From Calditrichota bacterium (GTDB taxonomy: Bacteria > Zhuqueibacterota > Zhuqueibacteria > Zhuqueibacterales > Geothermadaptataceae), in contig QQUE01000003.1 of NCBI GenBank assembly GCA_008501765.1, positions 62,001 through 126,000 of the forward strand: a stretch of 64,000 bases of DNA, given 5' to 3'. Positions 6,641 through 39,217 of the stretch are shown one piece after another (position 1 is the stretch's first letter; the number at the start of each line of letters is the position of its first letter). The translations under genes were made by a program, and so were the position numbers. Under the pieces are notes generated by a model that saw nothing but the letters and a program-made list of their open reading frames with translations, had not been told where the DNA came from and did no database searches.

Positions 6641-6805
6641 AACGTGAGTTCGATGTAAAAAAAATTGGGACAAAACGAATTAATTATAGGATATAGTCCG
6701 AAGGCGTCCCGCTGAGGATAACACACGAAACGCTCGGCAAGACGCCTTCGCTCTATTTTAATTATGCTTGGTAAAGAATGTTACAGCTTGAATCGAACTC
6801 ACGTT
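6641..6805 (-). mobile_element. MITE-like element, copy A (165 bp)
   Basis: Bounded by AACGTGAGTTCGATGTAA at the left and its degenerate complement ending ATCGAACTCACGTT at the right. It is the reverse complement of copies at 32754-32917 and 39053-39217, with only scattered differences. The centre holds an imperfect hairpin whose arms are GAAGGCGTC and GACGCCTTC. No coding capacity. A perfect target duplication is not seen at this copy; AAAT occurs immediately to the right and two bases outside the left end. Confidence 0.85.
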
Positions 6806-6857
6806 AAATATAGTTACTTAAAAGGTTCAAGTCTCATCCATATGATTTGGAGAAACA

Positions 6858-8219
6858 ATGCGAAATATGATATTCATGATTCTGATAAGCCTGGTCATGA
6901 TTTATTCGTGCCAAAAAGAAGGGGATACAACCATGTGGACTGAAAAACAGCTCACCTTTGACGCTAAAAACCACGATCTCGATGACAACTATAATTTTTC
7001 TCCTGACGGTCAGTGGCTGGTTTACGATATTCGCGATGAAGGGGGCATCGGTGACAATCCGGCCATTGAAAAAGTCAATGTTAAGACGGGTGAAATGGTG
7101 ACCGTTTACGAAGTGCCAAACCAAGCGCCATACGGCCCGGGCTGTGGCGCAATGAACTACCATCCGACTGAAAATAAGCTGGTTTTTATCCACGGCTTGT
7201 TCAATTGTACGCCCGAAAATCCCTACCAGCAGTGGCATCGATTTGGCATGATAATCGACGAATCAAATCCGGATGTGCCAATAATTATGGATGCGCGCGA
7301 CATCGTAAAACCAACCACGCCGGGAGCATTAAGCGGTGGCACACACAGCCACAGATGGAGCGCTGACGGGCAATGGATTGGTTTTACGTACAATGATGCG
7401 CATCTGGCTACAGTTGAGCAAAAAACAGGGAAAAAAGTGAATTTGCGAACCGTCGGAGTTTCACACAACACCGGGCCTGTTTCTGTTGAAAAACTACCTT
7501 CCGGCGAAAATTTTGATGGAGCGTGGTTTTCAGCGCTTATAGTTAAAGTCGTGCCAGATCCGAAACCGGGATCTGATCAAATCATTCGCGCCGACGGTGA
7601 CCGCTGGCTCGGTACATACGGTTATAAAATCACCGACGGACGTATGCAGCAGGCACGAACTTTTCTCGGCCATGTGAAAGAGAAAAACGGCAACACGGTA
7701 AAGGAAGTATTTGTCGTTGATGTTCCGAAGCGCATCGATGAGCCAAGTGAAATACTCGCATTGCAAGGTACGGATTTGTACATCCCGCGCGGCGCTACGC
7801 AGCGACGTTTGACATACACTACTGAATGGAAACATGCAGGCGTTGCCCGCGTTACCAGCTCGGAGAACGGCTCGATTATCAGCTTTTTAGCGAAGGATGC
7901 AGCTGGACGTTACCAAATATATTTTATCCCACCAACCGGTGGAGAACTGGCACAGGTCACCCATCACCAAACAACCATTCAATTGGAAGGCGGCTTGCGC
8001 TGGCAACCCGGTAAAAATGCCATCAGTTACCTTCTGGACAACACATTAATGCTCTATTCTGTCAGTGAGAAAAAATCGTACGCCATTTCGAAACAGCATA
8101 AAATGACACCGTTCAATCTCGCATGGTCGCACGATGGCCGGGTGCTTGCGTACAATAAAATTCTCCCGACAGGTGGGCAGAACTACAAACAAGTTTTTGT
8201 ACTGCGGAAGTCAAATTAA
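6858..8219 (+). CDS. DUF3748 / YidR-like beta-propeller lipoprotein
   Basis: A 453-residue protein with a lipoprotein signal peptide ending at Cys18 (MIYSC). The body matches E. coli YidR (DUF3748) along its length: LTFD near the start, the SPDGQWLVYD repeat, PENPYQQWH, TPGALSGGTHSHRWS, and later QRRLTYT. SPDG/SADG/SHDG motifs in successive blades are those of TolB/WD40-like propellers. The family's function is unknown, though it often sits beside sugar-catabolism genes. Here the neighbours are an isomerase and a sialidase-fold lipoprotein, suggesting a periplasmic or surface role in glycan use. GGAGAAACA precedes ATG 6858. Confidence 0.85.
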   Translation: MRNMIFMILISLVMIYSCQKEGDTTMWTEKQLTFDAKNHDLDDNYNFSPDGQWLVYDIRDEGGIGDNPAIEKVNVKTGEMVTVYEVPNQAPYGPGCGAMNYHPTENKLVFIHGLFNCTPENPYQQWHRFGMIIDESNPDVPIIMDARDIVKPTTPGALSGGTHSHRWSADGQWIGFTYNDAHLATVEQKTGKKVNLRTVGVSHNTGPVSVEKLPSGENFDGAWFSALIVKVVPDPKPGSDQIIRADGDRWLGTYGYKITDGRMQQARTFLGHVKEKNGNTVKEVFVVDVPKRIDEPSEILALQGTDLYIPRGATQRRLTYTTEWKHAGVARVTSSENGSIISFLAKDAAGRYQIYFIPPTGGELAQVTHHQTTIQLEGGLRWQPGKNAISYLLDNTLMLYSVSEKKSYAISKQHKMTPFNLAWSHDGRVLAYNKILPTGGQNYKQVFVLRKSN

Positions 8220-8245
8220 TCGTTCAAATTACTGCATCCCGAGTA

Positions 8246-8267
8246 ACCCGCCCGTTTTTAGGCGGGT
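8246..8267. terminator. GC-rich hairpin after the YidR-like gene
   Basis: ACCCGCC, an 8-base T-rich loop, then GGCGGGT, 27 bases after the stop codon. The 7-bp stem is strong but no T-run follows. A terminator role is plausible, not certain. Confidence 0.4.
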
Positions 8268-8408
8268 GTATCGAGGCGTGGAATGTATTTAATCATAGCC
8301 CTTGTAATCCCTTCCGTTAAGTAACCGTATGGCATCGTTCGCTAGTGCTCTTAAAAAATAAATTTGAAATTGACAGACCAAAAAATCCAGTATATTGGAG
8401 AAGAAGTA

Positions 8409-9557
8409 ATGCAGCCAGTTGTTAAAAAATACAGCTTACCAAGCTTGATAATCTTAATTCTTGTCCTATTTTCGAGCTGCTCAAAATCCCCCGACCATTC
8501 CAAAGTGCCCGGGGTTATCATCAGCCATTCTCCGGCTTCATCGGGACGATACATCGGTTCGCCGAGTATTACGGTTTTGCCCAATGGTGATTATGTGGCT
8601 TCTCACGATTTTTTCGGACCGCAAGCGAACCACAAAGTCAGTCCAATATCGTTAATTTTCACTTCTAACGACCGCGGCAAATCCTGGCAGCAAATTGCCG
8701 AAATCGAACCACTATTCTGGGGCAAACTATTTGTCCACAACGATGCACTCTACTTGATCGGCACCCGTCACGAATACGGTGATGTGCTCATCCGCCGCTC
8801 CGAAGATGGCGGACGAACTTGGACGACGCCCGATTCCCCGGAAACAGGTATTCTCAAAACCGGGCCGTACCACTGTGCACCGTGCCGGATTTTAATTCAC
8901 AATGGCCGAATCTGGCGCAGTTTTGAGCTGGCAGAAGGGGAACGGCCAGAATGGTCTGCTCTGGTTATTTCAGCTTCGGTCGACGCTGACCTGCTCGACG
9001 CAGCAAGCTGGACATTCAGCGAACCGTACCAGCATCTCTGGTCAGAATCCCAGTGGATTGAAGGTGATGTGAATCTGACTCCGGACGGAAAACTGGTAAA
9101 TATTCTGCGCACCAACCGTCAGGGGGACGACCGGGCCGCCATAACTTTTGTGGCTGAAGACGGGCTGTCGTTAACACACGATCGCGAAAAAGACATTATC
9201 GATATGCCCGGCGGCGGGGTGAAATTCACCATTCGATTTGATGAAAAATCAGGGCTATACTGGTCAATCGCCAGCAAACAGACCGACCCGAAAGCCTACC
9301 GCAATAGTTTGGTTTTGATTTCCTCGCCCGATTTGCGACAGTGGAAAGTGGAATCGCCGCTGTTATTTCACGCAGACTCTGAGAAACATGCCTGGCAATA
9401 CATCGATTGGCTTTTCGATGGCGACGACATCATTTTTGCCAGCCGTACCGCTTTTGATGACGGTCTCGGCGGCGCCCACCGCGCCCACGATGCCAACTAT
9501 TTGACATTTCACCGGATCGTGAATTTTCGCACCCGCGAGCCGGCTTTGATGGACTGA
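8409..9557 (+). CDS. Sialidase-fold exo-glycosidase-like lipoprotein
   Basis: A 382-residue lipoprotein (lipobox LFSSC, Cys24). Two clear Asp boxes, SNDRGKSW and SEDGGRTW, lie in the first half, and the rest continues the propeller (SSPDLRQWKVESP, ASRTAFDDG). ATG 8409 is chosen because GGAG at 8397-8400 is well placed; an upstream in-frame ATG at 8364 would bury the signal peptide. It likely acts at the cell surface or in the periplasm on glycans. Whether it removes sialic acid is unknown, since catalytic Arg/Tyr residues cannot be placed by eye. Its last 208 residues are duplicated as a truncated copy at 11413-12042. Confidence 0.85.
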   Translation: MQPVVKKYSLPSLIILILVLFSSCSKSPDHSKVPGVIISHSPASSGRYIGSPSITVLPNGDYVASHDFFGPQANHKVSPISLIFTSNDRGKSWQQIAEIEPLFWGKLFVHNDALYLIGTRHEYGDVLIRRSEDGGRTWTTPDSPETGILKTGPYHCAPCRILIHNGRIWRSFELAEGERPEWSALVISASVDADLLDAASWTFSEPYQHLWSESQWIEGDVNLTPDGKLVNILRTNRQGDDRAAITFVAEDGLSLTHDREKDIIDMPGGGVKFTIRFDEKSGLYWSIASKQTDPKAYRNSLVLISSPDLRQWKVESPLLFHADSEKHAWQYIDWLFDGDDIIFASRTAFDDGLGGAHRAHDANYLTFHRIVNFRTREPALMD

Positions 9558-9600
9558 AAAAACAGGCGGCACCTATCATCAGCGATTTGTTCAAAGCGCA

Positions 9601-10650
9601 TCACTCTGCCTCTTCATCATTTGTTCTATTTTCAGATTTTCCTTTACGGGCTGCCTCCTGTAAATCGACCACTCTGTCGGTTTCATCGACGATTTCACTG
9701 CCAAGTAACGTTTCCAGAAGGTCTTCCATGGTGACCAGTCCATCAACTCCGCCGAATTCATCAGAGACGATGGCGATGTGTTTTCTGTGTTTCAAAAAGC
9801 TGATTAAGATCGTCAAACAATTCATGGTTTCTGCGACAAAGGAAATGGGTCTCGCAATTGATTGAAGCGTGTCTGTGGACTCTTTTTGCATTTTTACGTT
9901 GCCGATGTCATGGCTCACAACATACCCGACTATATTCTCCCGGTCATTTTCGTAGATGGGAATGCGTGTAACTCCTTTTCCGCTGATGGTTAGGATCGCT
10001 TCCTCAATGGTCATCGTTGCCGGCAAAGAGAAAATCATCCTGCGCGGTGTCATAATTTCCCGTATCTGTCGTTCTTCCAGGTTGATGATATTTCGCACCA
10101 TCCGGCTTTCTTCTTTGGTTATTTCGCCTTCGTGTGCCCCTAAATGCACTAATGCCAGAATTTCTTCCTCGGTGATAGTCGCGACTCGCTGCTGACTGGT
10201 TAATAATCTCGAAAGTCTCTCGGTAACCAGGATAGCGGGATATAAGGCTGTCTGCATTACTTTTAGCGGATATACGATGAACGGCCAGAGAGCTCTCCAA
10301 TGAACCGCGCCAACTGTTTTCGGAATTATCTCGGATAGAAATAAAATAGCAAGGGTAAAAATAATGGAAAATACGGGTACCATATAGGGGCCGAGTACGT
10401 TCGTCGCGTACATTCCCGCCATGGTGGCGCCTGCGGTATTGGCGAGCGTATTCAAGATGAGAATAGCAGCGATGGGTTTTGAAATGTTTTTTTTCAGTGC
10501 GATGAATTGCGAAGCCAATTTCCCTCTTTTAGTCTGTTTTTTAGCAGCTTCTAATGTTGCTGGTCGAGTGGAATAGAGTACCGCCTCATAAAGAGAACAA
10601 CTTGCCGATACGAGCAGGGTTACTATTACGACGATAATCAAAATGGTCAT
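9601..10650 (-). CDS. CNNM transmembrane / CBS-pair protein (CorC/HlyC-type magnesium or cobalt efflux)
   Basis: A 349-residue inner-membrane protein. The N-terminal half has four hydrophobic segments, the pattern of the CNNM/DUF21 domain, including the conserved SEIIPK motif. The C-terminal half carries a CBS pair, seen in REIMTPRRMI, VTRIPIYE and the closing GGVDGLVTMEDLLE motif that links to the second CBS domain. The family exports Mg2+ or Co2+ and senses nucleotides through the CBS pair. It ends in an acidic/basic tail without the usual CorC_HlyC domain, so it is the short form. GAGGAG precedes the start. It points against the surrounding carbohydrate genes and seems unrelated to them. 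Confidence 0.9.
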   Translation of the reverse strand: MTILIIVVIVTLLVSASCSLYEAVLYSTRPATLEAAKKQTKRGKLASQFIALKKNISKPIAAILILNTLANTAGATMAGMYATNVLGPYMVPVFSIIFTLAILFLSEIIPKTVGAVHWRALWPFIVYPLKVMQTALYPAILVTERLSRLLTSQQRVATITEEEILALVHLGAHEGEITKEESRMVRNIINLEERQIREIMTPRRMIFSLPATMTIEEAILTISGKGVTRIPIYENDRENIVGYVVSHDIGNVKMQKESTDTLQSIARPISFVAETMNCLTILISFLKHRKHIAIVSDEFGGVDGLVTMEDLLETLLGSEIVDETDRVVDLQEAARKGKSENRTNDEEAE

Positions 10651-11410
10651 GTTTTTCTCCTCATTCCCTTACGGGATAAAATATATTATAGCACATGTCT
10701 TCCGTGTCCCGGCTTACTTCCCGAACCAGCAGTTATCTTGCGCGACGTGCGTTTGTCAATAACAAATGGTTTTCTTTCCAGTTTTGCTTCCTGTTGTTCA
10801 ATTTTTAAAGTTATCTCTTGCCTGTATTGCAGGTGGGGGAATCAAACTCACTCTGAAAATTTCTGATGAGCTGATTTAAATATATTTTCCAGAATAACGA
10901 TTCCAACAGCTTTGCTTTACTCATCCACTGCAAATCCCAAGTATGTCGTATCGGTTGAAATTGATTGGGCAAATGGCTTGTGTTGTTCCATATTCAGTCA
11001 GTTTATTTCGGGGGTATCTGAACAGCGGTAAAATCGGCTGCAATAAATATCTATTTAAAAAGGTAAAAATTACAGCCAGAATAATTTGTATGTTTTCCAT
11101 TATCAAAATTGATATTTCAGTCCGTCTCTCCGCGCTTGATTAATATTTTTGAAGTCCAATTTAATGTTTAATGTGAAATAATTCCAGTTATTTAAAGGAT
11201 GTCCGGTTAAATAATAGGATATCGACGCAGGAAATACTTTTCTATTAATGAAAAGCATTGTTCAGGAAAACACCGGTAAACACATATTCGCCGGGGATTC
11301 TTGCAGAACGATTGCAACTTTTATCATAATATCCTAAAAGTCTGTGTCAGTATCTGACGAACGTGATTTCATAAATAAAAGCGGATTGGATTGAAGTCAG
11401 GTTAAATCGT
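10651..11410. other. Gene-free stretch
   Basis: About 760 bases between the start of the CNNM gene and the breakpoint of the truncated sialidase copy. I see no supported gene, repeat or hairpin, only the ribosome-binding site and presumably the promoter of the minus-strand gene. The missing 5' part of the sialidase copy is not recognisable here. Confidence 0.6.
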
Positions 11411-11412
11411 AA

Positions 11413-12042
11413 CTGGTGGAAGGCGAAAGGCCGGAGTGGTCGGCGCTGGTCATTTCAGCCCCGGTTGATGCCGATCTGCTCAATACAGCCAACTGGACAT
11501 TCAGCGAACCCTACCAGCATCTGTGGTCAAAATCACAGTGGATTGAAGGTGATGTCAACCTGACGCCGGATGGAAAGCTGGTCAATATTTTGCGCACCAA
11601 CCGCCAGGGCGACGACCGGGCAGCGATAACTTTTGTGGCTGAAGATGGGCGTTCACTTTCCCACGACCGTGAAAAAGATCTCATCGACATGCCCGGTGGC
11701 GGGGTGAAATTTACCATTCGATTTGATGAAAAATCCGGACTTTACTGGTCGATCGCCAGTAAGCAGACGGAGCCGAAAGCCTATCGCAATAATCTGGTAT
11801 TGATTTCATCGCCCGATTTACGGCACTGGAAAGTGGAGTCGCCGCTGCTTTTTCACGAAGATTCTGAAAAACATGCCTGGCAATACATCGATTGGCTTTT
11901 CGATGGCGACGACATCATTTTTGCCAGCCGCACCGCCTTCGATGACGGCCTCGGCGGCGCCCACCGTGCCCATGATGCCAACTATTTGACATTTCACCGA
12001 ATTGAGGATTTTCGAACGCGGGAGCCGGAATTATTGGAGTGA
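11413..12042 (+). pseudogene. 5'-truncated duplicate of the sialidase-fold gene
   Basis: The frame matches the last 208 residues of the lipoprotein at 8409-9557 at about 91% identity by my count (some 18 differences). Similarity starts abruptly around 11411: an in-frame TAA at 11410-11412 stands directly before the homologous part. The signal peptide and both Asp boxes are gone, and no convincing ribosome-binding site precedes the first usable GTG at 11416. Many differences from the intact gene are at third codon positions. It is best read as a partial gene copy left after duplication and deletion. Confidence 0.85.
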
Positions 12043-12407
12043 ATTAGATAAGCATTGACTCTGTTTATTTTGATGGTGATATAGGTTTGGTGTGGGTGTC
12101 TCGTTGTTCAACGGAAATTATGACACATTAAAATTCAATTAATTGTTGCCAGAGAATTGGCTTGATTGAGCGTAACTAAATGCTAAGGTTGTGCAAGTCG
12201 TTGGGGATTAATATTATTTTTTACAAATTGGCCGCAAATCTGAAACATTGAATTACTTCAGGCCGTTTGTATTCATCCTGAGGTAAGATTCTTGTGAAAA
12301 AAGAGATATTTGAGCAAGGCCCTGCCAAAATTGACAAGAAATTTTCTAGCATGGTTAGCAAATATCGATTCATGCGTAAATTGATGTATTCACCTATGAA
12401 AATCATT
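12043..12407. other. Gene-free stretch between convergent ends
   Basis: This gap lies between the 3' end of the truncated sialidase copy and the 3' end of a minus-strand gene. It is AT-rich. I see no gene and no strong terminator. Confidence 0.5.
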
Positions 12408-13565
12408 TTATAAAGTTTCAGGGGGGGGGTAATATAAAACTAAATGTGTCATTTTATTTTTTTCATAATCAGGAAATTTGTATTTCCTATTCATAAATAA
12501 AGTCCTTGATTCTGATCCTCCAAAGTTTGCAAAGAGATAACCACTTTTAAACGCAATCTCTAACATTATTAAAGTTAGTACCTCTGAACACCCCGGAACC
12601 CCAGTCTGATGAATTGTGTCCCAAGTTAAATGTTGAGATTCAGCTCTTTGATGCAAGGCAATTTCAGAATAAATACCTGCAGTAGTATCGGATATTCTAT
12701 CAATAAATCCAAAAGCGATAACCTTACTTTCCCCTTTTCTTGCTAACCTCATCACAATTGATTTTGATAGTTTGGTAGTAGTGTAGTTAAATTTATAAGA
12801 TCTCCCTGAATTAATATTATCTACGTTCGGTAAAAAACATTCATGCGAATCTAGTAAATCTCCGATTTCTTCTTCACGGTGCCTTAGTTTTCTAAATTTC
12901 GCCCATGTAGAGATCATTTCTTTTACATCTGTATAATCCTTTTTTGGATTATACGAATTTATATTAATTGAACAATCCTCTTTATCTAGCCAATTGATGA
13001 ACCTCCGAGCATGGCCGCGTAAGTTTGATGTTTTTGTTGCATATGGGACAGGAATTCTTGAAATATTATTCCTGCCAGATAAGTATCGTTCAATGTTAAT
13101 TATAAACTCAGGGTAATCATCATCATCATATTTATAGCTTACACTCCATCCATCATTATCCAAATACTCAGTAAAACCTGCTGAATGGAATTCGTTAACA
13201 AATTTAATTGGTATTTTTTTTAAAATGACTTTTTCACCAGAATGTTTTTGTAATTTTAATGCAAGGTTTCGACAGTTTTGGGCAAGTATTTTTGTACTTT
13301 TTCCCATTGGATATACTATAACAAATGGAGGTCTACCATTTGGATACTTTGTAGTGATTGTAATTAAATTAGCTTTTCCAGGAGGTAAGTAATATGCCCA
13401 AAAATTTCTGGAAGATTGAAAAAAGTATGTCATCGAGTGACTATAGTCTCTTGTTTTTTTATTTTTAAGAAAAAATTTGGAGTAGACAGATAAACTCTTT
13501 GTTGTATCATCTTCAAACAAGTGAATGTTTGGTATTATATTAATTATTTGTTCGCTGTCCAGCAT
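12408..13565 (-). CDS. Unknown protein, possible double-GNAT (DUF2156-like) acyltransferase fold
   Basis: A 385-residue soluble protein without signal peptide. The C-terminal part (FANFGGSES, then LFMNRKYKFP) resembles the end of GNAT-like domains in the DUF2156/aminoacyl-phosphatidylglycerol-synthase group, where a GGSE-type motif precedes a lysine-rich strand. This is weak, pattern-level evidence. I chose ATG 13565: GGGAG lies 8-9 bases upstream, and it overlaps the upstream membrane-protein gene by 26 bases, which suggests translational coupling. A run of nine C on the coding strand (12421-12429) encodes the prolines near the C-terminus. Base composition is visibly more AT-rich than in the neighbouring glycan genes. 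Confidence 0.6.
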   Translation of the reverse strand: MLDSEQIINIIPNIHLFEDDTTKSLSVYSKFFLKNKKTRDYSHSMTYFFQSSRNFWAYYLPPGKANLITITTKYPNGRPPFVIVYPMGKSTKILAQNCRNLALKLQKHSGEKVILKKIPIKFVNEFHSAGFTEYLDNDGWSVSYKYDDDDYPEFIINIERYLSGRNNISRIPVPYATKTSNLRGHARRFINWLDKEDCSININSYNPKKDYTDVKEMISTWAKFRKLRHREEEIGDLLDSHECFLPNVDNINSGRSYKFNYTTTKLSKSIVMRLARKGESKVIAFGFIDRISDTTAGIYSEIALHQRAESQHLTWDTIHQTGVPGCSEVLTLIMLEIAFKSGYLFANFGGSESRTLFMNRKYKFPDYEKNKMTHLVLYYPPPETL

Positions 13566-14250
13566 CAAAAGCACTCCCGAAATAATAGCTTTTTCCACCC
13601 CAAATATCCAGCCAGGTAATTACTAGCAAAATTGCGGCACTAAAACCAAAAAAGATTTGCTGATTTGTAATCGATGAGCGTACTCCCAAAAGTAAAATGA
13701 CAGCAGGAAAAAGGAACAAAGTATCAAGTATAAACCATTTTTTTACAATACTACTTCTCCCTTTGATTTCAATAATATCTGTATGGGATTTTAAAACATT
13801 TGCTGATTTTCCTAATTTGTTAAATGCGATTGTTAAAATCCCGTTTCGAATAACAAATAGAATTGATGAGAGCAAAAAAACCCATGCAAAAGCTACATAT
13901 AAGTGAAGGATCATTCCTTGGAAAACCAAGGTTAAAACTATAAACATCATTGCAAGAAAATCAATAAGTCTTACAATACTCAGGCTTTCTTTACTTACAA
14001 TTTTTTCATATTCTGGATCATATAGTGATTCATCTTGATAGAATTTTACAAAACCCAAGAATGTTCGTAGGAGGTTTGAAAAATAGATTATAAATAAAAA
14101 CGATAAGTGTAAAAATGCCGTATCCTCGTAAGTAAGATTAAGCTGATCATGAGAGCTAGGTAATAATCTTGTTACAAAAGTAGCAACACCCGCACCTAAG
14201 CACAAACCTAATGCTACGTTAATAAATAATAGCATACCATCTCTGCGCAT
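13540..14250 (-). CDS. Multi-pass membrane protein, unknown function
   Basis: A 236-residue protein with about six or seven hydrophobic segments spread over its length and short charged loops. No family is recognised. GGAGG lies about 10 bases before ATG 14250. It is the first gene of a two-gene unit with the possible acyltransferase downstream, overlapping it. A membrane protein paired with a GNAT-like enzyme would suit lipid or envelope modification, but this is speculation. The AT-rich composition sets the pair apart from its surroundings. Confidence 0.6.
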   Translation of the reverse strand: MRRDGMLLFINVALGLCLGAGVATFVTRLLPSSHDQLNLTYEDTAFLHLSFLFIIYFSNLLRTFLGFVKFYQDESLYDPEYEKIVSKESLSIVRLIDFLAMMFIVLTLVFQGMILHLYVAFAWVFLLSSILFVIRNGILTIAFNKLGKSANVLKSHTDIIEIKGRSSIVKKWFILDTLFLFPAVILLLGVRSSITNQQIFFGFSAAILLVITWLDIWGGKSYYFGSAFDAGQRTNN

Positions 14251-14400
14251 ATTAGTTAATCCTCCAATTAAAACATATTGATCTTGCAGTCTGTTTGCAC
14301 TACTCAGTATGTTTTTTTATACCCTTATGTTAATTATCATAAAAATAAATACCTACAAAGTCAATGATTTTCATCCCACCTTTTGAATTATGCTGCCGCT

Positions 14401-14431
14401 ACCCAGGCAAGATTTTTAATCCTGCCTGGGT
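14401..14431. repeat. Hairpin in a divergent intergenic region
   Basis: ACCCAGGCA and TGCCTGGGT form a 9-bp stem, and the inner GATT/AATC extends it. It lies between two divergently transcribed genes, so it is not at a transcript end. A further repeat-rich stretch at 14503-14571 has tandem GCCAAAA and GCCAATA units facing inverted copies (TTGGCTATT). Confidence 0.5.
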
Positions 14432-14636
14432 TAATTCGGTTACAATTGATGATAATCCCATACTTGCTCAAAGTGATAAAAATCACGATCTTGATTGGGG
14501 CGGCTGTTAGCTGTATGCTGTTGGCTATTAGTAAAATTACCAAAAGCCAAAAGCCAATAGCCAATAGCTACAACATCAGCAAGATCAAGAAAGAGTTACT
14601 TAAAAACAATCTGATGGATTAATTAAAAGGACTCTC

Positions 14637-15893
14637 ATGATACGAAAACAAATACATATCCTTCTCTCTCTCTTATTTTTCCCAATTTTACTATTCGCAG
14701 GCACTGAATTCAAAGCCGGGGCGGCGTTACGCGTAGTAACGCCCGATCCGCTGCTGCCCATTTCCGGTGGCGTGGGAATACCCCAGCCGGCCACTATGAA
14801 AAAAGGCGATTTATTCGTTCGGGCTCTGGTTTTGGATTACGGCCGGACGCCGGTTGCCTTCGTCAGTATTGATAATTTGGGTTGGCCGGCGGTTCTCGGC
14901 GACCGTGTGCGCAAACAGGTCAAAGGCATTGCCCCGGAAAATATTCTCATCGGCGCGACGCACACGCACAGCGCCCCGGATGCCTATGGCTTCGCCGACG
15001 CCGATGGAAATACCGGCGCTGATCTCAAATACATCGATTTCTGTGTGCGGAAAATGGCTGAGGCCATTCAGGAAGCGTTTGACAAGCGGCAGCCGGCCGG
15101 ATTGAAAATTGCCATGGGTGAGGCAAAAGGCAAAATTGCGTTTAATTATTACGCCGCAGAGCTTTACGATCCCCGTTGCGGCGTTATTCAGGCTGTGGCC
15201 AAAGATGGAAAAAATATCGCGACGCTGGTTAATTACGCTATTCACCCGGAAGTTTTGGGCAACGACCGCGGTATCCTCAGTCCGGATTTGTGTGGGCCGT
15301 TGTACGAGCGCATCGAAAAACGTGGCGGCGGCTTGGCCATTTTTATGAACAGCGCTATCGGTGGCATGGTCACCGCCGATGTGCGCGACGGCAAAGGTGG
15401 GCAAAACAATACCTGGGAAGAGTGCATTCGCATCGGCGAGCTGCTGGCTGACGAAGCCTTGCGCATCGTCGCACCTGCTAAATTCCTTGAAAATCCAGCG
15501 ATCCATTGCACAAATCGCATCGTTAAATTTCCATTAGACAGCCCGCTTTTGCGCGCAGTTTTGCAGCAGGCGGTACTGGATTATCCCATCGGATCGGACG
15601 GCATGGTTTCCACCCGTATCAATTTACTCAATGTTGGGCCCGCACAAATTCTCACAATTCCCGGCGAAGCGCTGCCCAATATCGGCTATTTTCTCAAGCG
15701 AAAAATGAAAACCGATTATCCGTTTCTTTTCGGGCTCACCAACGACGCTTTCGGTTATATTTTGACTCCCGAAGATTTCGATAGCTTCAAGCGCTACGAT
15801 TATATCAGCAGAACCAGTTTGGGTGAAATGACGGGGGAGATTTTTGTTGAGCAGGCGTTACAGATGATTGCAGAAAATCCAGCGGCTAAATAA
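14637..15893 (+). CDS. Neutral/alkaline ceramidase-family hydrolase (N-terminal domain only)
   Basis: A 418-residue exported protein with a signal peptide (about 1-21). It matches the N-terminal domain of neutral/alkaline non-lysosomal ceramidases. Visible landmarks are the early PISGGVGI, the zinc motif THTHSAPDA, the later zinc histidine in NYAIHPEVLG, and NSAIGGMV where the family has its nucleophile-bearing loop. True ceramidases are longer (about 650-700 residues) and have a C-terminal immunoglobulin-like domain, absent here. The short bacterial relatives are uncharacterised amide or ester hydrolases. AAAGGACTC precedes the ATG. Confidence 0.82.
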   Translation: MIRKQIHILLSLLFFPILLFAGTEFKAGAALRVVTPDPLLPISGGVGIPQPATMKKGDLFVRALVLDYGRTPVAFVSIDNLGWPAVLGDRVRKQVKGIAPENILIGATHTHSAPDAYGFADADGNTGADLKYIDFCVRKMAEAIQEAFDKRQPAGLKIAMGEAKGKIAFNYYAAELYDPRCGVIQAVAKDGKNIATLVNYAIHPEVLGNDRGILSPDLCGPLYERIEKRGGGLAIFMNSAIGGMVTADVRDGKGGQNNTWEECIRIGELLADEALRIVAPAKFLENPAIHCTNRIVKFPLDSPLLRAVLQQAVLDYPIGSDGMVSTRINLLNVGPAQILTIPGEALPNIGYFLKRKMKTDYPFLFGLTNDAFGYILTPEDFDSFKRYDYISRTSLGEMTGEIFVEQALQMIAENPAAK

Positions 15894-30659: not shown

Positions 30660-31459
30660 TGAAAAAAAATCTGCCAAATAAATCTCAAAACGTGAATAGA
30701 AGAAAATTTATCAAAAATCTTGTGCTCGCTGTTACAGCATTCTCGGTACCTGCAGTTCTCACTGCAAAAGAACAATTAAAACGCATGCAATCCTGGATTT
30801 TAGGCAAAGACTATAATCCATTTGATCACTATTGGGGGATGGGAATCGATATTAACAAGTGCATCGGCTGTGGCCGCTGTGCTGATGCTTGCAAACAGGA
30901 AAATGATGTTCCTTCCGAACCTTTTTTCTTTCGCACTTGGGTTGAACGCTATCGCATTTTTCATGACGGGGAAGTGAGAGTAGATAGTCCCAATGGAGCC
31001 GTTGATGGATTTAAAAAACAGAATATCGAAAAAGGAAAAGTAACGATTCGAAGTTTTTTTGTACCCAAAATTTGCAACCACTGTGATAATCCACCCTGTG
31101 TTCAAGTCTGTCCAGTCGGGGCAACTTTTATAACTCCTGATGGGGTTGTTCTTGTCGATTCCGATTATTGCATCGGCTGCCGTTACTGTATTCAGGCTTG
31201 CCCTTACGGTGCACGATATATCGATCCTATAAAGAAAACAGCAGAAAAATGTACATTTTGCTATCACCGGGTTGTGCAAGGTTTAGTACCTGCATGTGTC
31301 GAAGTCTGCCCGACCCAGGCACGGGTGTTCGGTGAAGTCAAGAAAAAAGCCAGTCCTTTAGTCAGGTTTATGCGCATGAATAAAATCGGTGTATTAAAAC
31401 CCGCGTTGAATACTGAACCCAAAGTATATTATGCGAATCTTGATATGGAGGTAAATTAA
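30659..31459 (+). CDS. Tat-exported four-cluster [4Fe-4S] ferredoxin-like subunit (DsrO/HybA/NrfC type)
   Basis: A 266-residue protein. A twin-arginine signal (NRRKFIKN, Arg14-Arg15, then a hydrophobic stretch) sends it folded to the periplasm. Sixteen cysteines form four cluster sets: 68/71/74/78, 139/142/147/151, 171/174/177/181 and 198/201/213/217. This is the electron-wire subunit of complex iron-sulfur molybdoenzyme-type systems and of DsrMKJOP. ATG 30659 overlaps the upstream stop, with GGAGG at 30647-30651. The next gene, an NrfD-type protein, starts three bases after its stop; the usual Fe-S/NrfD pair is therefore complete. Confidence 0.92.
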   Translation: MKKNLPNKSQNVNRRKFIKNLVLAVTAFSVPAVLTAKEQLKRMQSWILGKDYNPFDHYWGMGIDINKCIGCGRCADACKQENDVPSEPFFFRTWVERYRIFHDGEVRVDSPNGAVDGFKKQNIEKGKVTIRSFFVPKICNHCDNPPCVQVCPVGATFITPDGVVLVDSDYCIGCRYCIQACPYGARYIDPIKKTAEKCTFCYHRVVQGLVPACVEVCPTQARVFGEVKKKASPLVRFMRMNKIGVLKPALNTEPKVYYANLDMEVN

Positions 31460-31461
31460 TT

Positions 31462-32673
31462 TTGGAAGAGATTATCCAACATCTGACGCCGCTTTTCAAA
31501 GAAATCAGCGGTTACATATATCCGAATGAAATCGAACTCCATTGGAGCCTTTTGGTGGTGATTTATCCTTATTTAACAGGATTGGTCGCAGGTGCTTTTA
31601 TTTTGGCATCTCTGGTGAAAGTATTTAATGTCACGGCCCTGAAACCTGTTTATCGTATTTCATTGCTTACCGCGCTGGCATTTATGCTGGTCGCGCCACT
31701 TTCCCTTTTGGCCCACCTTGGGCATCCGGAAAAATCTTATGAAATCCTGCTAACGCCCAATCTAACCTCAGCTATGGCCATGTTCGGATTTGTTTATATG
31801 TGGTATTTGATGGCTGTGCTTTTACAGGAAATTTGGTTTGATTATAGAAAAGATCTCATTTTGTGGGCACAAAAGGAAAGAGGAATTAAAAAATGGCTGT
31901 ACAAATGTGCTTCTCTTTTCTCCAAGGACATCTCTGAAAAAGCCTTGAAATTTGATGATAAAGCTGAAAAAGTTATCACAATACTCGGTATCCCTTCGGC
32001 ATTTGTGCTGCACGGCTATGTCGGTTTTATTTTTGGGTCGGTTAAAGCCAATCCGTTTTGGTCAAGCGTTCTTATGCCGATCGTATTTTTGTTTTCAGCA
32101 ATCGTTTCCGGGATCGCTCTTGTATTGTTGATTTACATGGTGGTTACCCCCCTGCGAAATAAAGTTATGGATACAAAATGCCTCGATACATTGGCCAGTT
32201 TTTTGTTCTATGCCATGATTGTCGATTTTTCACTTGAGATATTGGATTTCATCCACAGAATTTATGAATCCGAGGAGTCGATTCATATTCTTTCAGAACT
32301 GGTGGCGGGGAAGCTGCAATTCAGTCTCATAGTTGTGCAGTTAATTATCGGCATGATTATCCCACTCGCGTTGATCGCCGGTGTAAAAATGTTTAATACA
32401 CCAGTGGAATTAAAAAGATTGCTCTATTTTGTTTCTGCATTGCTGGTCCAAGTGGGCATCTTTTTTACCCGCTGGAATGTTGTTATTGGCGGGCAGCTTT
32501 TTTCGAAAAGTTTCCGCGGGCTAACAGCTTACAAAATGAATATATTAGGAATTGAAGGACTTTTGGTTTCTATTGCTATTCTCCTGTTGCCGTTTTTAAT
32601 TTTGTATGTCCTGTTCAAGTTTCTCCCTCCATGGGGTGAAACCCATGTTACAACTCAACCAGAATCTTCATAA
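31462..32673 (+). CDS. NrfD/PsrC-family quinol-interacting membrane subunit
   Basis: A 403-residue integral membrane protein with about nine or ten hydrophobic segments and a charged loop of about 50 residues near 130-175. The topology and the LAHLGHPEKS motif between early helices are those of NrfD/PsrC/DsrP, which oxidise or reduce menaquinone and exchange electrons with the partner iron-sulfur subunit. TTG 31462 is assigned because GGAGG at 31447-31451 precedes it and the protein begins in the expected place. It is the last gene of the operon; no catalytic molybdopterin subunit or maturation gene follows. Confidence 0.88.
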   Translation: MEEIIQHLTPLFKEISGYIYPNEIELHWSLLVVIYPYLTGLVAGAFILASLVKVFNVTALKPVYRISLLTALAFMLVAPLSLLAHLGHPEKSYEILLTPNLTSAMAMFGFVYMWYLMAVLLQEIWFDYRKDLILWAQKERGIKKWLYKCASLFSKDISEKALKFDDKAEKVITILGIPSAFVLHGYVGFIFGSVKANPFWSSVLMPIVFLFSAIVSGIALVLLIYMVVTPLRNKVMDTKCLDTLASFLFYAMIVDFSLEILDFIHRIYESEESIHILSELVAGKLQFSLIVVQLIIGMIIPLALIAGVKMFNTPVELKRLLYFVSALLVQVGIFFTRWNVVIGGQLFSKSFRGLTAYKMNILGIEGLLVSIAILLLPFLILYVLFKFLPPWGETHVTTQPESS

Positions 32674-32753
32674 AATTGACTCAGTTGGTCGTGCCTGGAA
32701 ATGATATAAATTTCGATGGCACGGCCAACAAAACTCCCGCCTCTTTATTATTT

Positions 32754-32917
32754 AACGTGAGTTCGATATAAGCTGTAACATTCTTTACCAAGCAAATTAA
32801 AATAGAGCGAAGGCGTCTCGCCGAGCGTTTCGTGGGTTATTCTCGGCGGGACGCCTTCGGACTATATCCTATAATTAATTCGTTTTGTCCCAATTCTTCT
32901 TACATCGAACTCACGTT
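32754..32917 (+). mobile_element. MITE-like element, copy B (164 bp)
   Basis: Begins AACGTGAGTTCGATATAAG and ends CTTACATCGAACTCACGTT. It is flanked on both sides by ATTT, a 4-base target duplication. The internal arms CGAAGGCGTCTCGCCGAG and CTCGGCGGGACGCCTTCG pair with one mismatch (G-U in RNA). It sits between the NrfD gene and the GH38-family gene and has no coding capacity. Confidence 0.9.
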
Positions 32918-33071
32918 ATTTAGGATTCCGCATATAATTCCGGCCATTTCAAAATCTGTTATCAAGACAATGAATATTTGAATCATTCATAAATCGCTTG
33001 AATAATTATTTTGAACAAGCGTGAATCTTTCTTATTTTTGTGCAACCCATTTTATAAAAATAAGGCCTAAA

Positions 33072-35864
33072 ATGAAAAAATACCAGATTCACGTAATTTC
33101 CAATACACACTGGGACCGCGAGTGGCTCTACAATTTCCAGGAAACGCGCTTGATGCTGGTGGAAATGATGGATGGTTTGCTTGATATTCTCGAAAAAGAA
33201 CCGGAGTACAAATCGTATGTCCTCGATTCACAAACGGTGTTATTGGAAGATTATTTGGAATTGCGGCCTGAAAATAAAGAGCGTCTGAAAAAACAGGTTG
33301 AATCCGGCCGATTGCTCATCGGGCCATGGTACAGCGCACCGGAAAGTTTTTCAGTCAATGGCGAAAGTCTTGCACGAAATCTGCTCATGGGACATCGTAT
33401 CGCCCGGGAATTTGGCGCGGTTATGAAAGTCGGTTACACGCCTTTCGGCTACGGACAAAACAGCCAGATGCCACAACTCTATCAGGGATTTGACATCGAG
33501 AGCATGCTTTTTTACCATGGCGTATCGCATGATGAAGTGAAAAACGAGTTTATTTTTGCGGGTGCTGACGGCACACAAATTTTAGGCTCACAGATGAGTT
33601 CGGGGGCGCGCTATTGTTTTTATCACAATGTGTACCGACCCGTTGTTTGTGGCAAATCGATCAAAGAACGTGAATTCCAATGGAAAGAGGGCGGCATGCC
33701 TTTTCGGTTGGCAGATGTGGCAAGGAACCGCGATCACCATCGATTAATTCAGCCTGAATTCCAATTCGACGAAGACAAACTCAAAAGGTGCGTCCGCAAT
33801 TTGATGGAAGATGAAAAAAATGTTGCCACAACGCGATTTCTCACTTTTATGAGTGGCCATGACAGCAGCATTGCAGATTCCGTTGAACTCAAGCTTATAA
33901 ATAGCGCAAAAAAACACCTGCCGGATGCTGAAATTTTTCACAGCAGCCTGCCGGAATTGATGGATAAAATTAAAAGTGAAGCGCGAAATTTAACAATTTT
34001 AACCGGGGAGCGCCGAACACCAAAATTGATGAATGGCCGGGTTCACTTGTACAGTGACGTGCTTTCGAGCCGGACGCGCATGAAAATGCAGAACGCGCGC
34101 GCGGAATACAATCTTCAACGTGTGGCGGAACCACTTGCCGTTATCGCAAATATGCTTGGCTATGAATTTCCAGCATCGGCAATAGAATATGCCTGGAAAT
34201 CGTTGCTCAAATGCCACGCTCACGACAGCATCGCCGGCAGCGGCGTCGATGATATTGAGCGTGATATGATGAACCGGCTGCAACAGGTGAATAATTTATG
34301 CGATAGCCTGACCCGTCGAAGCCTTGAAAAAATTCAGTTATCAATCGATATGTCTGGCGTGGCGAAAGACGCGGTGATTCTTACAATTTATAATCCATCT
34401 CCTTTTCAACGTTCTGAAGTCATTTCGGCTGTGCTGGATATTCCTGCTGATCCTTCGATGACCGCATTCTCTCTTAAAAAAATACAGAATGACGAGCCAG
34501 TTGCTGTGCAAATTTGTGCTCGAAAACCACACAAAGCTGTGATAAATCAACCTTCAGATGCAACATTGATGATGGACACCGAGCAGGTCTTATTTCATTT
34601 TTTAGCAGATGAAATTCCTTCAATGGGATATTCCACATTTTACTTGAATTCGACGGAGCACCCAAAACGGGGCGGTCTTGTCTGTGGCCAGAACGCGATG
34701 GAAAATGAATTTTTGCATGTGCAGATTAATCCAAACGGCACGCTTCGAATTAAGAATAAGGAAACAGGACATATTTTTGATAATCTGCATTATTTTGAAG
34801 ATAGCGGTGATGCGGGCCATGCCTGGATGTTCATCGAACCTGCGATGAATCAGATCATCAATACTTTGGGACAACCGGTGATTATTTCTCTGGAAGAAAA
34901 TGGGCCATTATTGGCGCGTTTTCAGGTGATTTATTCGTTGCAAATTCCTGTAAGTATTGATTATAACGAAAGTGATAAATGGCAAAGTCTCGATGGCGCC
35001 GGTGGCCACGCGAAGCGCAGCAACCATACTTGTGAAATGAAAATAATTTCGCAGTTCACCTTGCGAAAAGGCAGCCGCGTTGTCGAAGTAAAAACCTCAT
35101 TTGAAAATAATGCCGAAAATCACCGCCTGCGCGTGATGTTTCCAACCGGTCTTGAATCTGCAAAAACATGCCATGTTGAGACTGCTTTTGATGTCGTTGA
35201 GCGGGAAGTCGTTATGCCACCCGACAGCCCGTGGTTTGGTGGTGAAAATGCCACCTTCCCGATGCAGCGTTTCGTGGACGTGCACGACGAAGAAAACGGT
35301 TTGGCGATAATAAACAACGGTTTGCTGGAATACCAGGTCACCGATGATTCGGAGCGCACGATTGCACTTACCCTGTTGCGGGCTTACGAAGTCAATTTAA
35401 CGACGGTGAGTTGGCGCTGGGAATCTCATCCCGAAATGAAAGGCTCGCAATGCCTGGGGTTTCATGAATTTGCGTACAATATTTATCCTCATGCAAAATC
35501 CTGGTCCGAGGTCAAAGTAGTGCAGCAAGCAGAGAAACTAAGCGTGCCGTTGCTGCCTGTTCAAAGTGGTACTGGTACCGCCGGGACTTTGTCCCCAAAT
35601 TTTAGTTTTTTGAAAATCGCGCCAGCTGAACTAATTTTGAGTGCGCTGAAACAGGCCGAGGATGGCGAAGGAATTGTCATTCGTATTTTTAATCCCACTG
35701 AAAAAGATTGTGCGGGGAAAATCAGGCTGTTTAAAGAGCCCATTGCGGCGGAGATAGTCAATCTGGAAGAAACATTTCAGGCCGTACTGCCGGTTAAAAA
35801 TAACATTATTTCAGTTCCTTGCGCGGCGAAAAAAATTGTGACCGTCAAGTTCAAAATATCCTGA
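33072..35864 (+). CDS. GH38 alpha-mannosidase-family protein lacking the catalytic Asp
   Basis: A 930-residue protein without signal peptide, so cytoplasmic. The N-terminal GH38 domain starts with SNTHWDREW (zinc ligands His13, Asp15) and includes CHAHDSIAGS (His382 region); the C-terminal beta domains (about 420-930) follow the usual order. The family nucleophile and zinc ligand normally sits in P-D-x-F-G-x-x-x-Q-M-P. Here that segment reads PFGYGQNSQMP, with Phe125 where Asp is expected. Either the enzyme is inactive, uses another residue, or has a different reaction. ATG 33072 is preferred to ATG 33021 because homology starts at MKKYQIHVIS. Confidence 0.85.
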   Translation: MKKYQIHVISNTHWDREWLYNFQETRLMLVEMMDGLLDILEKEPEYKSYVLDSQTVLLEDYLELRPENKERLKKQVESGRLLIGPWYSAPESFSVNGESLARNLLMGHRIAREFGAVMKVGYTPFGYGQNSQMPQLYQGFDIESMLFYHGVSHDEVKNEFIFAGADGTQILGSQMSSGARYCFYHNVYRPVVCGKSIKEREFQWKEGGMPFRLADVARNRDHHRLIQPEFQFDEDKLKRCVRNLMEDEKNVATTRFLTFMSGHDSSIADSVELKLINSAKKHLPDAEIFHSSLPELMDKIKSEARNLTILTGERRTPKLMNGRVHLYSDVLSSRTRMKMQNARAEYNLQRVAEPLAVIANMLGYEFPASAIEYAWKSLLKCHAHDSIAGSGVDDIERDMMNRLQQVNNLCDSLTRRSLEKIQLSIDMSGVAKDAVILTIYNPSPFQRSEVISAVLDIPADPSMTAFSLKKIQNDEPVAVQICARKPHKAVINQPSDATLMMDTEQVLFHFLADEIPSMGYSTFYLNSTEHPKRGGLVCGQNAMENEFLHVQINPNGTLRIKNKETGHIFDNLHYFEDSGDAGHAWMFIEPAMNQIINTLGQPVIISLEENGPLLARFQVIYSLQIPVSIDYNESDKWQSLDGAGGHAKRSNHTCEMKIISQFTLRKGSRVVEVKTSFENNAENHRLRVMFPTGLESAKTCHVETAFDVVEREVVMPPDSPWFGGENATFPMQRFVDVHDEENGLAIINNGLLEYQVTDDSERTIALTLLRAYEVNLTTVSWRWESHPEMKGSQCLGFHEFAYNIYPHAKSWSEVKVVQQAEKLSVPLLPVQSGTGTAGTLSPNFSFLKIAPAELILSALKQAEDGEGIVIRIFNPTEKDCAGKIRLFKEPIAAEIVNLEETFQAVLPVKNNIISVPCAAKKIVTVKFKIS

Positions 35865-36001
35865 GCCTGAGAAAATAGCACCTGCTGTAAAATTTTGTCA
35901 TCTGTAAATCGAGAAATTGATTTTCTGAATAATTTTATTATTTTATCCGATCGGGTAAAAATAAATTCAATTAAACTATACAGACTGAGGAGTATATTGC
36001 T

Positions 36002-36679
36002 ATGATTAAAAAGTGGATTAATATTCTGTTTGTCCTGGGATTTATAGCTGGAATTTCGGGGATTTTAGGGCAGGATAAAAAAGCAGACATGGCGCCCATA
36101 AAAATTGATCTGCCAAAACCGATGTTTGTTGGAACGCCACAAAATATGCAAGTCCCAAATCTGGAAAAACCTTTGGGAAAACCGCGGCCTCCATTTCTCG
36201 CTCCGGCAGGGACAAAAAACCTGGTTCTCGGGCAAATCCCGGCAAGTACCGATGATATGCCAATTATCGGTGAACTGGAGATGATTACGGATGATGACAA
36301 AGAGGCGCCGGAAGGGCATTTCGTTGAATTGGGCCCATTTTTACAGCATATTACCTTTGATTTGGAAAAGGCCAGTAATATTTACGCCGTGCTAATTTGG
36401 CATTTCCACAAACAAGCCCGGGTATATTTTGATGTCATCGTGCAAGTCGCTGATGATAAAGATTTTACCCAAAATGTTCGCACAATTTTCAACAACGATC
36501 TCGATAATTCCGCCGGACTCGGCGTTGGCAAAGACCGGCATTATGTTGAAACTTCGGAAGGCAAACTTATTGACGCGGCCGGGGTTGTCGGTCGATTTGT
36601 GCGTATTTATTCCAATGGCAATACCAATAACGACTTGAACCACTACGCTGAAGTTGCGATTTACGGCAAAGCTCAGTAA
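36002..36679 (+). CDS. Exported discoidin-like (F5/8 type C-like) protein, unknown role
   Basis: A 225-residue protein with a signal peptide (about 1-23) and a Pro-rich linker (about 30-75). The C-terminal portion has the rhythm of a galactose-binding-like beta-sandwich: DLEKASNIYAVLIWHF, RVYFDVIVQVADDKDF, then GRFVRIYSNGNTNN and HYAEVAIYG at the end. Such domains bind glycans or cell surfaces. Its stop overlaps the start of the next gene (TAATG), implying coupling with the membrane glycosyltransferase-like protein. ACTGAGGAG lies upstream of the ATG. Confidence 0.65.
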   Translation: MIKKWINILFVLGFIAGISGILGQDKKADMAPIKIDLPKPMFVGTPQNMQVPNLEKPLGKPRPPFLAPAGTKNLVLGQIPASTDDMPIIGELEMITDDDKEAPEGHFVELGPFLQHITFDLEKASNIYAVLIWHFHKQARVYFDVIVQVADDKDFTQNVRTIFNNDLDNSAGLGVGKDRHYVETSEGKLIDAAGVVGRFVRIYSNGNTNNDLNHYAEVAIYGKAQ

Positions 36680-38256
36680 TGCGCTCGACCGCTTTATTTT
36701 ATTTCATTTGTGGAGTTCTCATAAGCCTGGCAGTTTGGCTGCGAATCCAGAATTTGGATTCGCGGCCAATGCACACCGATGAGGCTGTGCATGCCGTAAA
36801 ATTTGGCACCTTATTGGAACAGGGCGATTACGTTTACGATCACCAAGAATACCACGGACCCACCCTCAACTATTTCACGCTGCTGCCCGCATGGCTAATT
36901 GGGCAGAAAACTATCGAAAAAATTGACGAATTCACACTGCGAATTGTCCCGGTGATTTTTGGCATCTTAGTGTGCGTGGCGTTTTTGCTCCTTGCTGGTG
37001 CATTGGGTCGGATAACGGTTGTTGCGTGCCTGTTTTTTACAGCGGTTTCACCGGCAATGGTGTTTTACAGCCGTTATTATATTCAGGAAATGCTGCTGGT
37101 TTTTTTTACATTTAGTCTGATTGTTTCAGGTTATTTCCTTTTCCGCACATCCAAACTCCGGTGGGCTGCAACAACCGGTGTTTTTTTAGGATTAATGCAC
37201 GCCACAAAAGAGACGTGGATAATTGCAGTGGCAGCCATTGTACTCGCCGCAGGGGGAATAATTTGGAGCGAACGTGATAAACTGCAATTCCCACCGCGCT
37301 TTACTTTATTAAAAATAACTGGCATTTTATTCGTCTGTTTCACGCTCACTTCAATTTTGTTTTATTCCTCATTTGGCGCGAATCCGGCGGGTATTTGGCA
37401 ATCGGTCTATGCTTACCTGACATATTTTGATCGAGCAACAAATAATGCTATCCATCTGCACCCCTGGCACTATTATTTGAAAATTCTTACTTTTTTTAAA
37501 GCGGGCGACGGGCCGGTTTGGTCCGAATTTGCTGTATTATTCTTCTCCATCGTTGGCATCGTGTACGCATTCTCTCGCTATGAACTCGATCAAAGTAAGC
37601 GTTTGTTGCAAAGGTTTTTCAGCCTGTACTCAATTATAATGGTAATAGTTTACAGCTTGATTCCGTATAAAACGCCGTGGAATCTGTTAAGTTTTTACCA
37701 TGGATTTATCATCCTGGCGGGCATTGGTGTTTGCAGTTTGTGGAACAGATATCGTTCCGGTTTTAAGCGGGGAATGTTGATTGGCGTCTGCGCAATTGGC
37801 GGAACGCATCTTCTTTGGCAAACGACGTTAATGAGTGGAGAGTACGAAGCGCATCCGGCGAATCCCTATGTTTATGGCCACACGCATCCCGATATATTTG
37901 AGATCGTGCAACAGATTGAGAATTGTGCGGCCGCACAGCCCGGGAAGAAGGCATTTTATATGCAGGTTATGTGCAGCGCAGGAGATTATTGGCCGTTGCC
38001 GTGGTATTTGCGGAACTATTCGCACATCGGATGGTGGGATAGGCTACCGGAGCATATCCCGAATGCGCCACTGGTCATTTTTTCACCAGATTTAGAGAGT
38101 AACTTCGTCCACAAAATCTATGATTTGGCGCCTCCGGGTGAGCGTTATCTTTATATCAGACTGTTTGACGAACCAATGTATTTGCGCCCGGGGATTGAAG
38201 TGCGTTGTTATGTTCGCAAAAAGGAATGGGACATTTTGCACAGAAGTACAGATTAA
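36679..38256 (+). CDS. TIGR03663-type multi-pass membrane protein (glycosyltransferase 39/ArnT-like fold)
   Basis: A 525-residue integral membrane protein with about ten hydrophobic segments. RPMHTDEAVHAVKF near the N-terminus carries the acidic loop typical of GT-C enzymes, followed by DHQEYHGPTLNY, a signature of the TIGR03663 family. Family members are membrane-bound and thought to move sugars from polyprenyl-phosphate donors, but no activity is established here. It starts within the stop of the discoidin-like gene. A C-terminal soluble portion (about 415-525) faces the periplasm in the usual topology. Confidence 0.8.
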   Translation: MRSTALFYFICGVLISLAVWLRIQNLDSRPMHTDEAVHAVKFGTLLEQGDYVYDHQEYHGPTLNYFTLLPAWLIGQKTIEKIDEFTLRIVPVIFGILVCVAFLLLAGALGRITVVACLFFTAVSPAMVFYSRYYIQEMLLVFFTFSLIVSGYFLFRTSKLRWAATTGVFLGLMHATKETWIIAVAAIVLAAGGIIWSERDKLQFPPRFTLLKITGILFVCFTLTSILFYSSFGANPAGIWQSVYAYLTYFDRATNNAIHLHPWHYYLKILTFFKAGDGPVWSEFAVLFFSIVGIVYAFSRYELDQSKRLLQRFFSLYSIIMVIVYSLIPYKTPWNLLSFYHGFIILAGIGVCSLWNRYRSGFKRGMLIGVCAIGGTHLLWQTTLMSGEYEAHPANPYVYGHTHPDIFEIVQQIENCAAAQPGKKAFYMQVMCSAGDYWPLPWYLRNYSHIGWWDRLPEHIPNAPLVIFSPDLESNFVHKIYDLAPPGERYLYIRLFDEPMYLRPGIEVRCYVRKKEWDILHRSTD

Positions 38257-38394
38257 GATTCAAATATTAAATTTTTTGTGCGATCAATTAATTTATTTTG
38301 TATATTCCATCATCGAATTTGCATCCTGCCACGCATTAAATCATCTACCTGCCAAAAATAGTGATACTCTGAGGAATGGAGGAGCCATCTTTCT

Positions 38395-39006
38395 ATGTTT
38401 AAAAGGGGTGTGACATTTTTCATTTTCTTAATTCTGACCAATTGGGGATGCAGCCACCGCCGGCCGCCTTTAATACCTGAATGCAATATTAAAATCCCAC
38501 TATCACAAAGGCTGATTGAAGAATACATCACCCCGGGTCTGGATCCGGTTATATTACAAAGTTTGTACAATCTGCAATTTTCTCTGGAAAAGGAGCTTAT
38601 AGTAAAACTTGATAAAGTGAGGAAAAGCGGGCGTGTTCTGCCACAACATATATTGCAACTGCAACGGGACTATAACCTGAAAGAATTAAATTTTCCACCG
38701 CGTGTGAAAGGGCGGGCTGTGGCGATAATTCCACCTGACTCTGGAATTATGTTTCAACCAATGAAATTAAAAGTTGAATTTGATATGCCACCGGGGATGC
38801 CTGGCATGGTTCTAACGTTTGTGCCCCGGGGACCGAATGGTACATTCGTCGTCGATAAATCCTTGTGGGGAAATAGCATTGAAGTGAATAACATGGACTA
38901 CGATTGTGCGTGGGGATGTAACTACAACCGTCTCCTGGTTCCGATTTGTTTGATTGAAGAAATTTATAGAAACAGACGGGTGGCGAGAGGATTCACTTTT
39001 CCTTAA
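38395..39006 (+). CDS. Lipoprotein of unknown function
   Basis: A 203-residue protein with a lipoprotein signal (LTNWGC, Cys19). I recognise no family. The C-terminal half is Pro/Gly-rich (FDMPPGMPGMVLTFVP) and contains the Cys-bearing YDCAWGCNYNR. GGAGG lies about 15 bases before ATG 38395. It is followed by MITE copy C and then by a convergent sensor-kinase gene. Confidence 0.6.
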   Translation: MFKRGVTFFIFLILTNWGCSHRRPPLIPECNIKIPLSQRLIEEYITPGLDPVILQSLYNLQFSLEKELIVKLDKVRKSGRVLPQHILQLQRDYNLKELNFPPRVKGRAVAIIPPDSGIMFQPMKLKVEFDMPPGMPGMVLTFVPRGPNGTFVVDKSLWGNSIEVNNMDYDCAWGCNYNRLLVPICLIEEIYRNRRVARGFTFP

Positions 39007-39052
39007 CCTGCATCATTTTAGTCAATCAAAACGTGTCTAAGGTTCACTGATT

Positions 39053-39217
39053 AACGTGAGTTCGATGTAAGCTGTAACATTCTTTACCAAGCATAATTAA
39101 AATAGAGCGAAGGCGTCTCGCCGAGCGTTTCGTGCGTTATCCTCAGCGGGACACCTTCGGACTATATCCTATAATTAATTCGTTTTGTCCCAATTGTTCT
39201 TGTATCGAACTCACGTT
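39053..39217 (+). mobile_element. MITE-like element, copy C (165 bp)
   Basis: Begins AACGTGAGTTCGATGTAAG and ends ATCGAACTCACGTT, with GATT on both sides as a 4-base target duplication. It has the same orientation as copy B and differs from it at about a dozen positions, including a disturbed base pair in the internal hairpin (ACACC for ACGCC). It lies between two convergent genes. Confidence 0.9.

Follow-up and report, generated by a model that had tools for sequence, protein, structure and literature searches.

The three repeats found in the window (the whole 64,000-nucleotide stretch of a Calditrichota bacterium contig that was analysed) are very probably copies of an IS982-type MITE that captured a REPIN of a RAYT system and was copied, with this REPIN as a passenger, by an IS982-type transposase acting in trans. 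A non-autonomous shell with IS982-family ends (ACGTGAGTTCGAYRTAAG) would have captured the REPIN, the transposase would have recognised the ends of the shell, and the whole unit would have been inserted at TAWWTA or TAAWTTA with duplication of 6-7 bp. The REPIN would thereby have been multiplied to about 110-125 copies, not by its own RAYT. The movement would now have stopped in the genome of the window, since no IS982-type transposase was found in it.

In the window, copies A, B and C align over 164-165 columns with identical architecture (Table 1). They are 162-163 bp long, with 18-base inverted ends and without transposase or coding capacity, which are the features of a MITE. A search of the window for the 19-base end with ≤3 mismatches gave six matches, versus 0.04 expected from shuffles. 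A previous sequence-only reading of this DNA had described the three copies, with A inverted relative to B and C, and all of them are present as described; the duplication length alone had been misread. Copy B forms one long hairpin (fold z of -8.6 and -8.0 versus shuffles for the two strands), and the search with Rfam at gathering scores gave no known RNA family in the window. Regarding their location, the three copies had been placed directly 3' of genes, which is only partly right: copy A is about 270 bp 3' of a fucose isomerase gene but also some 50 bp 5' of the following gene, copy B is located 80 bp after an NrfD gene, and copy C sits between convergent genes.

Table 1. Position in the window of the three MITE copies, their REPIN cores and their target duplications.
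Feature	Position	Strand	Basis
Copy A, inverted; IS982-type MITE with REPIN core	6642..6804	-	alignment, end search
Copy A, REPIN core	6694..6755	-	
Copy A, left target duplication TAAATA; two extra As between it and the element	6634..6639	.	read from sequence
Copy A, right target duplication TAAATA	6805..6810	.	
Copy B; IS982-type MITE with REPIN core	32755..32916	+	alignment, end search
Copy B, REPIN core	32803..32864	+	
Copy B, left target duplication TATTTA	32749..32754	.	
Copy B, right target duplication TATTTA	32917..32922	.	
Copy C; IS982-type MITE with REPIN core	39054..39216	+	alignment, end search
Copy C, REPIN core	39103..39164	+	
Copy C, left target duplication TGATTA	39048..39053	.	
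Copy C, right target duplication TGATTA	39217..39222	.	

The family is much larger than these three copies. In the whole genome of the window (G000; 5.9 Mb, 21 contigs, 98.9% complete), the ends gave 123+129 matches at ≤3 mismatches, versus 7 for a reversed control, and the core gave 112 matches. The element is present in roughly 110-125 copies, of which 83 distinct ones were read, and hence the description as a MITE family stands but its count of three does not. The mean pairwise identity of the copies is 0.94 (sample of 44) and is even along the whole element.

The reading of all these copies also moved the boundaries and the target site duplication (TSD). The base preceding the supposed 4-base duplication is T in 96-100% of the copies and the base following it is A in 95-100%; a 4-bp TSD was therefore rejected, as this T and this A are part of a duplication of 6 or 7 bp (TAWWTA or TAAWTTA) and had been miscounted. 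The boundary was set at 5'-AC, one base further in at each side than initially drawn, which gives ACGTGAGTTCGAYRTAAG as the inverted-repeat end; 57 of 69 IS982 elements begin with 5'-AC (PMC7335449). With this boundary, 29 copies have a TSD of 6 bp and another 24 one of 7 bp (53/83), mostly TAWWTA and TAAWTTA, and a further 16 of the 83 copies present a duplication within one mismatch. Exact flanking duplications of at least 6 bp were found in 54 of the 83 copies, versus a mean of 5 and never more than 11 in shuffled flank pairs, which supports the proposal that the copies moved as units. One copy, L037 (G000:C3:342831-345849), is 363 bp long and carries about 200 extra bp within its right arm, near the right end.

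Concerning the parent element, the dependence on an element outside the window that had been suspected was borne out, and its type could be identified as the IS982 family. The end ACGTGAGTTCGANNTA fits the IS982-end pattern AC(N)6T(N)5TT (PMC7335449) except for the last T. Two related genomes have broken IS982 elements with this end: in G034 the shell end precedes the beginning of a transposase matching NF033520 (IS982) at 3e-11, and in G028 it comes after the final part of an IS982 transposase. The G028 fragment was the starting point for finding complete IS982 elements, and two of 1035 bp with these ends appeared on plasmids of Bacteroides finegoldii and Parabacteroides distasonis. The former encodes a transposase matching NF033520 at 3.7e-75, with 1 and 2 mismatches in its ends and the TSD TAAATA; the latter has 0 and 1 mismatches in its ends and an interrupted reading frame. 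Consequently, the transposase flanked by the same ends, which had been proposed as a check, does exist in IS982 elements outside the genome of the window. Four strong IS982 elements from this phylum carry ends (ACCCGTTGTG) unrelated to those of the shell, which makes the match specific to one subgroup of the family. The ends, the TSDs, the target motif, the copy number and the IS982 elements with the same ends elsewhere are all read directly from the sequence; the ends, TSD and target together point to an IS982-type enzyme as the probable mover.

In the assembled genome of the window, no IS982 element was detected by protein or family search. A search for an autonomous element with PF01609 and NF033520 gave only an IS5-family transposase, at a locus with none of these ends. 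It is unlikely that an IS982 parent was collapsed in the assembly as a multicopy repeat, because the shell end is absent from the outermost 127 bases of all 40 contig ends read, out of 42. Most contigs of this genome (L411-L450) end in exact 127-base overlaps common to 3-7 ends, which indicates that the assembly broke at multicopy repeats, and one of these contig-end repeats reads like the end of an IS3-type transposase.

The cargo is of a different origin. Its 62-bp core consists of two short palindromic REP units that are inverted relative to each other and fold into one hairpin. In the sister species G002, such units flank both sides of an ORF with a Y1 transposase domain (L330), which presents the HUH motif MPNHVHF and matches the NCBIfam RAYT model at 5e-20, below the curated cut-off. 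The RAYT of the genome of the window is 66% identical to it and has degenerate REP units on both sides. The neighbours seem to be the same in the two genomes, a sialidase-like and a GH2-like ORF, as judged from translations only. In the genome of the window the first His of the HUH motif is replaced by Leu (LIH in place of HVH), so this RAYT is probably inactive, a dead enzyme. Two features count against the link with RAYTs: the RAYT proteins score 72 and 57 bits, below the NCBIfam cut-off of 80, and the tag of the REP unit is CTAG, or ATAG in the genome of the window, instead of the canonical GTAG (or CGTC). A PDB sequence search with the RAYT gave no match.

The conserved internal hairpin noticed previously is thus present, but it is not an ordinary internal fold of the element, since it is a REPIN that also appears outside this shell elsewhere. 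As for the genome of the window, the check covered 26 core sites for which no exact end match was listed, and all of them have shell ends, some degenerate; one is cut on one side by another insertion. Free REPINs were thus ruled out among the core sites checked, all cores being inside the shell except the units of the RAYT locus, which lie outside it as expected of the original home of the REPIN.

A different explanation is that the hairpin is kept for a role at the RNA level, as a transcript 3' end, a terminator or an mRNA stabiliser, mobility being only its mode of arrival. This is unlikely, although it deserves consideration since the core is better kept than the spacers, which a pure passenger does not predict. 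In 44 copies that were not chosen by their core, 1.3% of the G/C positions of the core differ from the consensus, versus 5.7% in the spacers and loop, that is, about 4.5 times less; leaving out shared polymorphisms, the values are 1.1% in the core and 3.0% outside it. The p-values of these comparisons (7e-10 and 5e-6) are indicative only, as the copies share ancestry and the cells are not independent. This conservation leaves room for selection on the hairpin, for a low mutability of the paired stem or for conversion between copies. An RNA role would also be in line with the very stable fold of copy B, with the weak terminator-like tail that B and C have on their minus strand, and with a run of seven Ts after the same core in relatives. 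However, the core stem shows virtually no compensatory changes. The terminator role finds no support in the placement of the element either: terminator-like sites are at the level of shuffles (8 versus 7.7), and the gene context of 42 copies is tandem in 28, divergent in 10 and convergent in only 4, with no enrichment of convergent pairs. In the reconstructed empty sites (L006-L050), the duplicated target overlaps the stop codon of a gene in 11 of 45 cases (10 TAA and 1 TAG). Targeting of stop codons was rejected, because this is only somewhat above the approximately 6 cases expected from the TAA-containing target alone, which explains most of the overlap.

The capture of a REPIN by an IS982-type shell, on the other hand, is consistent with the finding that shell and cargo are separable across genomes. 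The same core was found at 13 loci of G001, from the same genus, with none of the three shells around it. In two genomes from another family of the class, G031 and G037, the core is enclosed by GGGCTGTCCAAAAAG ends at L297, L301, L303, L311 and L313, and by AGTGATTGACCGAAAA ends at L298 and L305. Conversely, the IS982-type ends enclose different palindromes in G028, G031, G038, G024 and G064 (another class of the phylum), often with AT-rich duplications. Each of the 17 exact copies of CGTCATTCCGGCAATC in G031 has an IS982-type end within about 50 bp, as determined by position comparison, and the 79-bp copy L241 of this genome is a shell with its cargo deleted. These exchanges between shells and cores, the RAYT-flanking units in two species and the position of the core inside the shell throughout the genome of the window, except for the RAYT locus, are likewise direct readings. 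Concerning other phyla, a scan with exact 16-mers of the core gave a partial hairpin arrangement in only one of the matches listed, and the remaining ones among them look like chance.

These results make it improbable that the element is a plain IS982-derived MITE with a central hairpin that simply belongs to its internal sequence and is unrelated to REPs or RAYTs. Such an origin would agree with the presence of essentially every core copy of the genome inside the shell and with the even identity along the element, but not with the core occurring without this shell in G001 and within two further inverted-repeat shells in G031 and G037, nor with the units of the core flanking a RAYT in two species. 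More improbable still is that RAYT activity brought REPINs, in many independent insertions, into shells that already existed and were empty, for although the genus has REP units and a RAYT, and the same kind of shell holds different palindromes in different genomes, the position of the core and the spacers are the same in all copies of the genome (identity 0.94), the shell of each copy is flanked by a duplication of its own, no core-less shell with matching spacers was seen there, and the composite elements of this genome and G002 are 76% identical end to end. This last identity over the full length favours, regarding the captured REPIN, a single capture in the common ancestor of both species, and the REPIN would have been taken up once, in an ancestor of the genus.

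Several parts of this arrangement are already known, since a MITE containing a REP (QMITE2) and an IS982-derived MITE (in Cardinium) have been described. In the portions consulted of the report on QMITE2 of Coxiella burnetii (PMC5896051), this is a MITE of 150-190 bp that contains a GTAG REP, has duplications of 7-11 bp and is located mostly 3' of genes or in intergenic regions; its REP is described there as an IS1111 target, and these portions name neither a parent IS nor a cognate RAYT. Unlike QMITE2 as presented there, the shell studied here is of IS982 type, the RAYT of its REPIN was found, and across genomes shell and cargo can be separated. MITECca01/02 of Cardinium (PMC9769881) are, in the corresponding portions of that report, IS982-derived MITEs of about 240 bp in many copies; they differ in having their parent, ISCca4, in the same genome, and these portions mention no REP cargo. 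The core studied here resembles the REPINs associated with RAYTs (PMC3116915, PMC2817692) in being an inverted REP pair whose units flank a RAYT in the sister species. REPINs are considered to be mobilised by RAYTs, whereas this one is inside DDE-type inverted repeats with TSDs.

The CGTCATTCCGGCAATC unit of G031 is similar to the CGTC-tagged REPs (PMC3733652), with the CGTC tag, an 8-bp stem starting with AT and the CCA tail, but its loop is longer than the 4-5 bp described for them. CGTC REPs are said to have no dedicated transposase, and how they spread without one is an open question in the literature (PMC3733652). REP dimers within longer palindromes were reported in A. variabilis and H. 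neapolitanus (PMC3733652); unlike the shells described here, those palindromes had not been connected with an IS family or with target duplications. In the open-licence literature, no report was found of one shell with several REP families or of one REPIN in several shells; in that same literature, with most subscription journals outside its scope, there was also no report naming both parent enzymes.

The presence of the same outer shell with different hairpins in relatives suggests a possible route by which some orphan hairpins spread. Two packaged cases are available: every exact copy of the CGTC-type REP in G031 and the RAYT-type REPIN in the genome of the window. It is tentatively proposed, as a reasonable possibility, that REP palindromes, those of CGTC type included, routinely switch vehicle, being captured in DDE-type IS shells (the IS982-type one and at least two other inverted-repeat shells) and multiplied across a phylum by the enzymes of these shells, so that orphan REPs would be MITE cargo. 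This idea is directly testable because both parent enzyme families were identified by sequence. If it is true, the number of REPs in a genome may mirror the activity of an unrelated transposase instead of that of its RAYT.

Other arrangements of shells and palindromes were observed. In G031, a third inverted-repeat shell, CAGGCTGTTGCA, with a GCCACTGATGAACGCGGATT palindrome is nested inside an IS982-type MITE at L237, L239 and L250, with apparent duplications of 8-9 bp (CTGCAATC in L237 and TTAAAGATT in L250), and in G038 a palindrome very similar to GCCACTGATGAACGCGGATT is located directly in an IS982-type shell. The genome of the window contains degenerate IS982-like shells with weak end matches at L424 (G000:C7 end) and L450 (G000:C19 start), which enclose palindromes of other kinds, namely a CGTCATCCCGGT unit and a GCCACAGATCC palindrome. 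Finally, L272 of the sister species (G002:C753:4200-5500) is a head-to-tail array with a period of 176 bp, whose unit holds the REPIN core and a partial IS982-like end.
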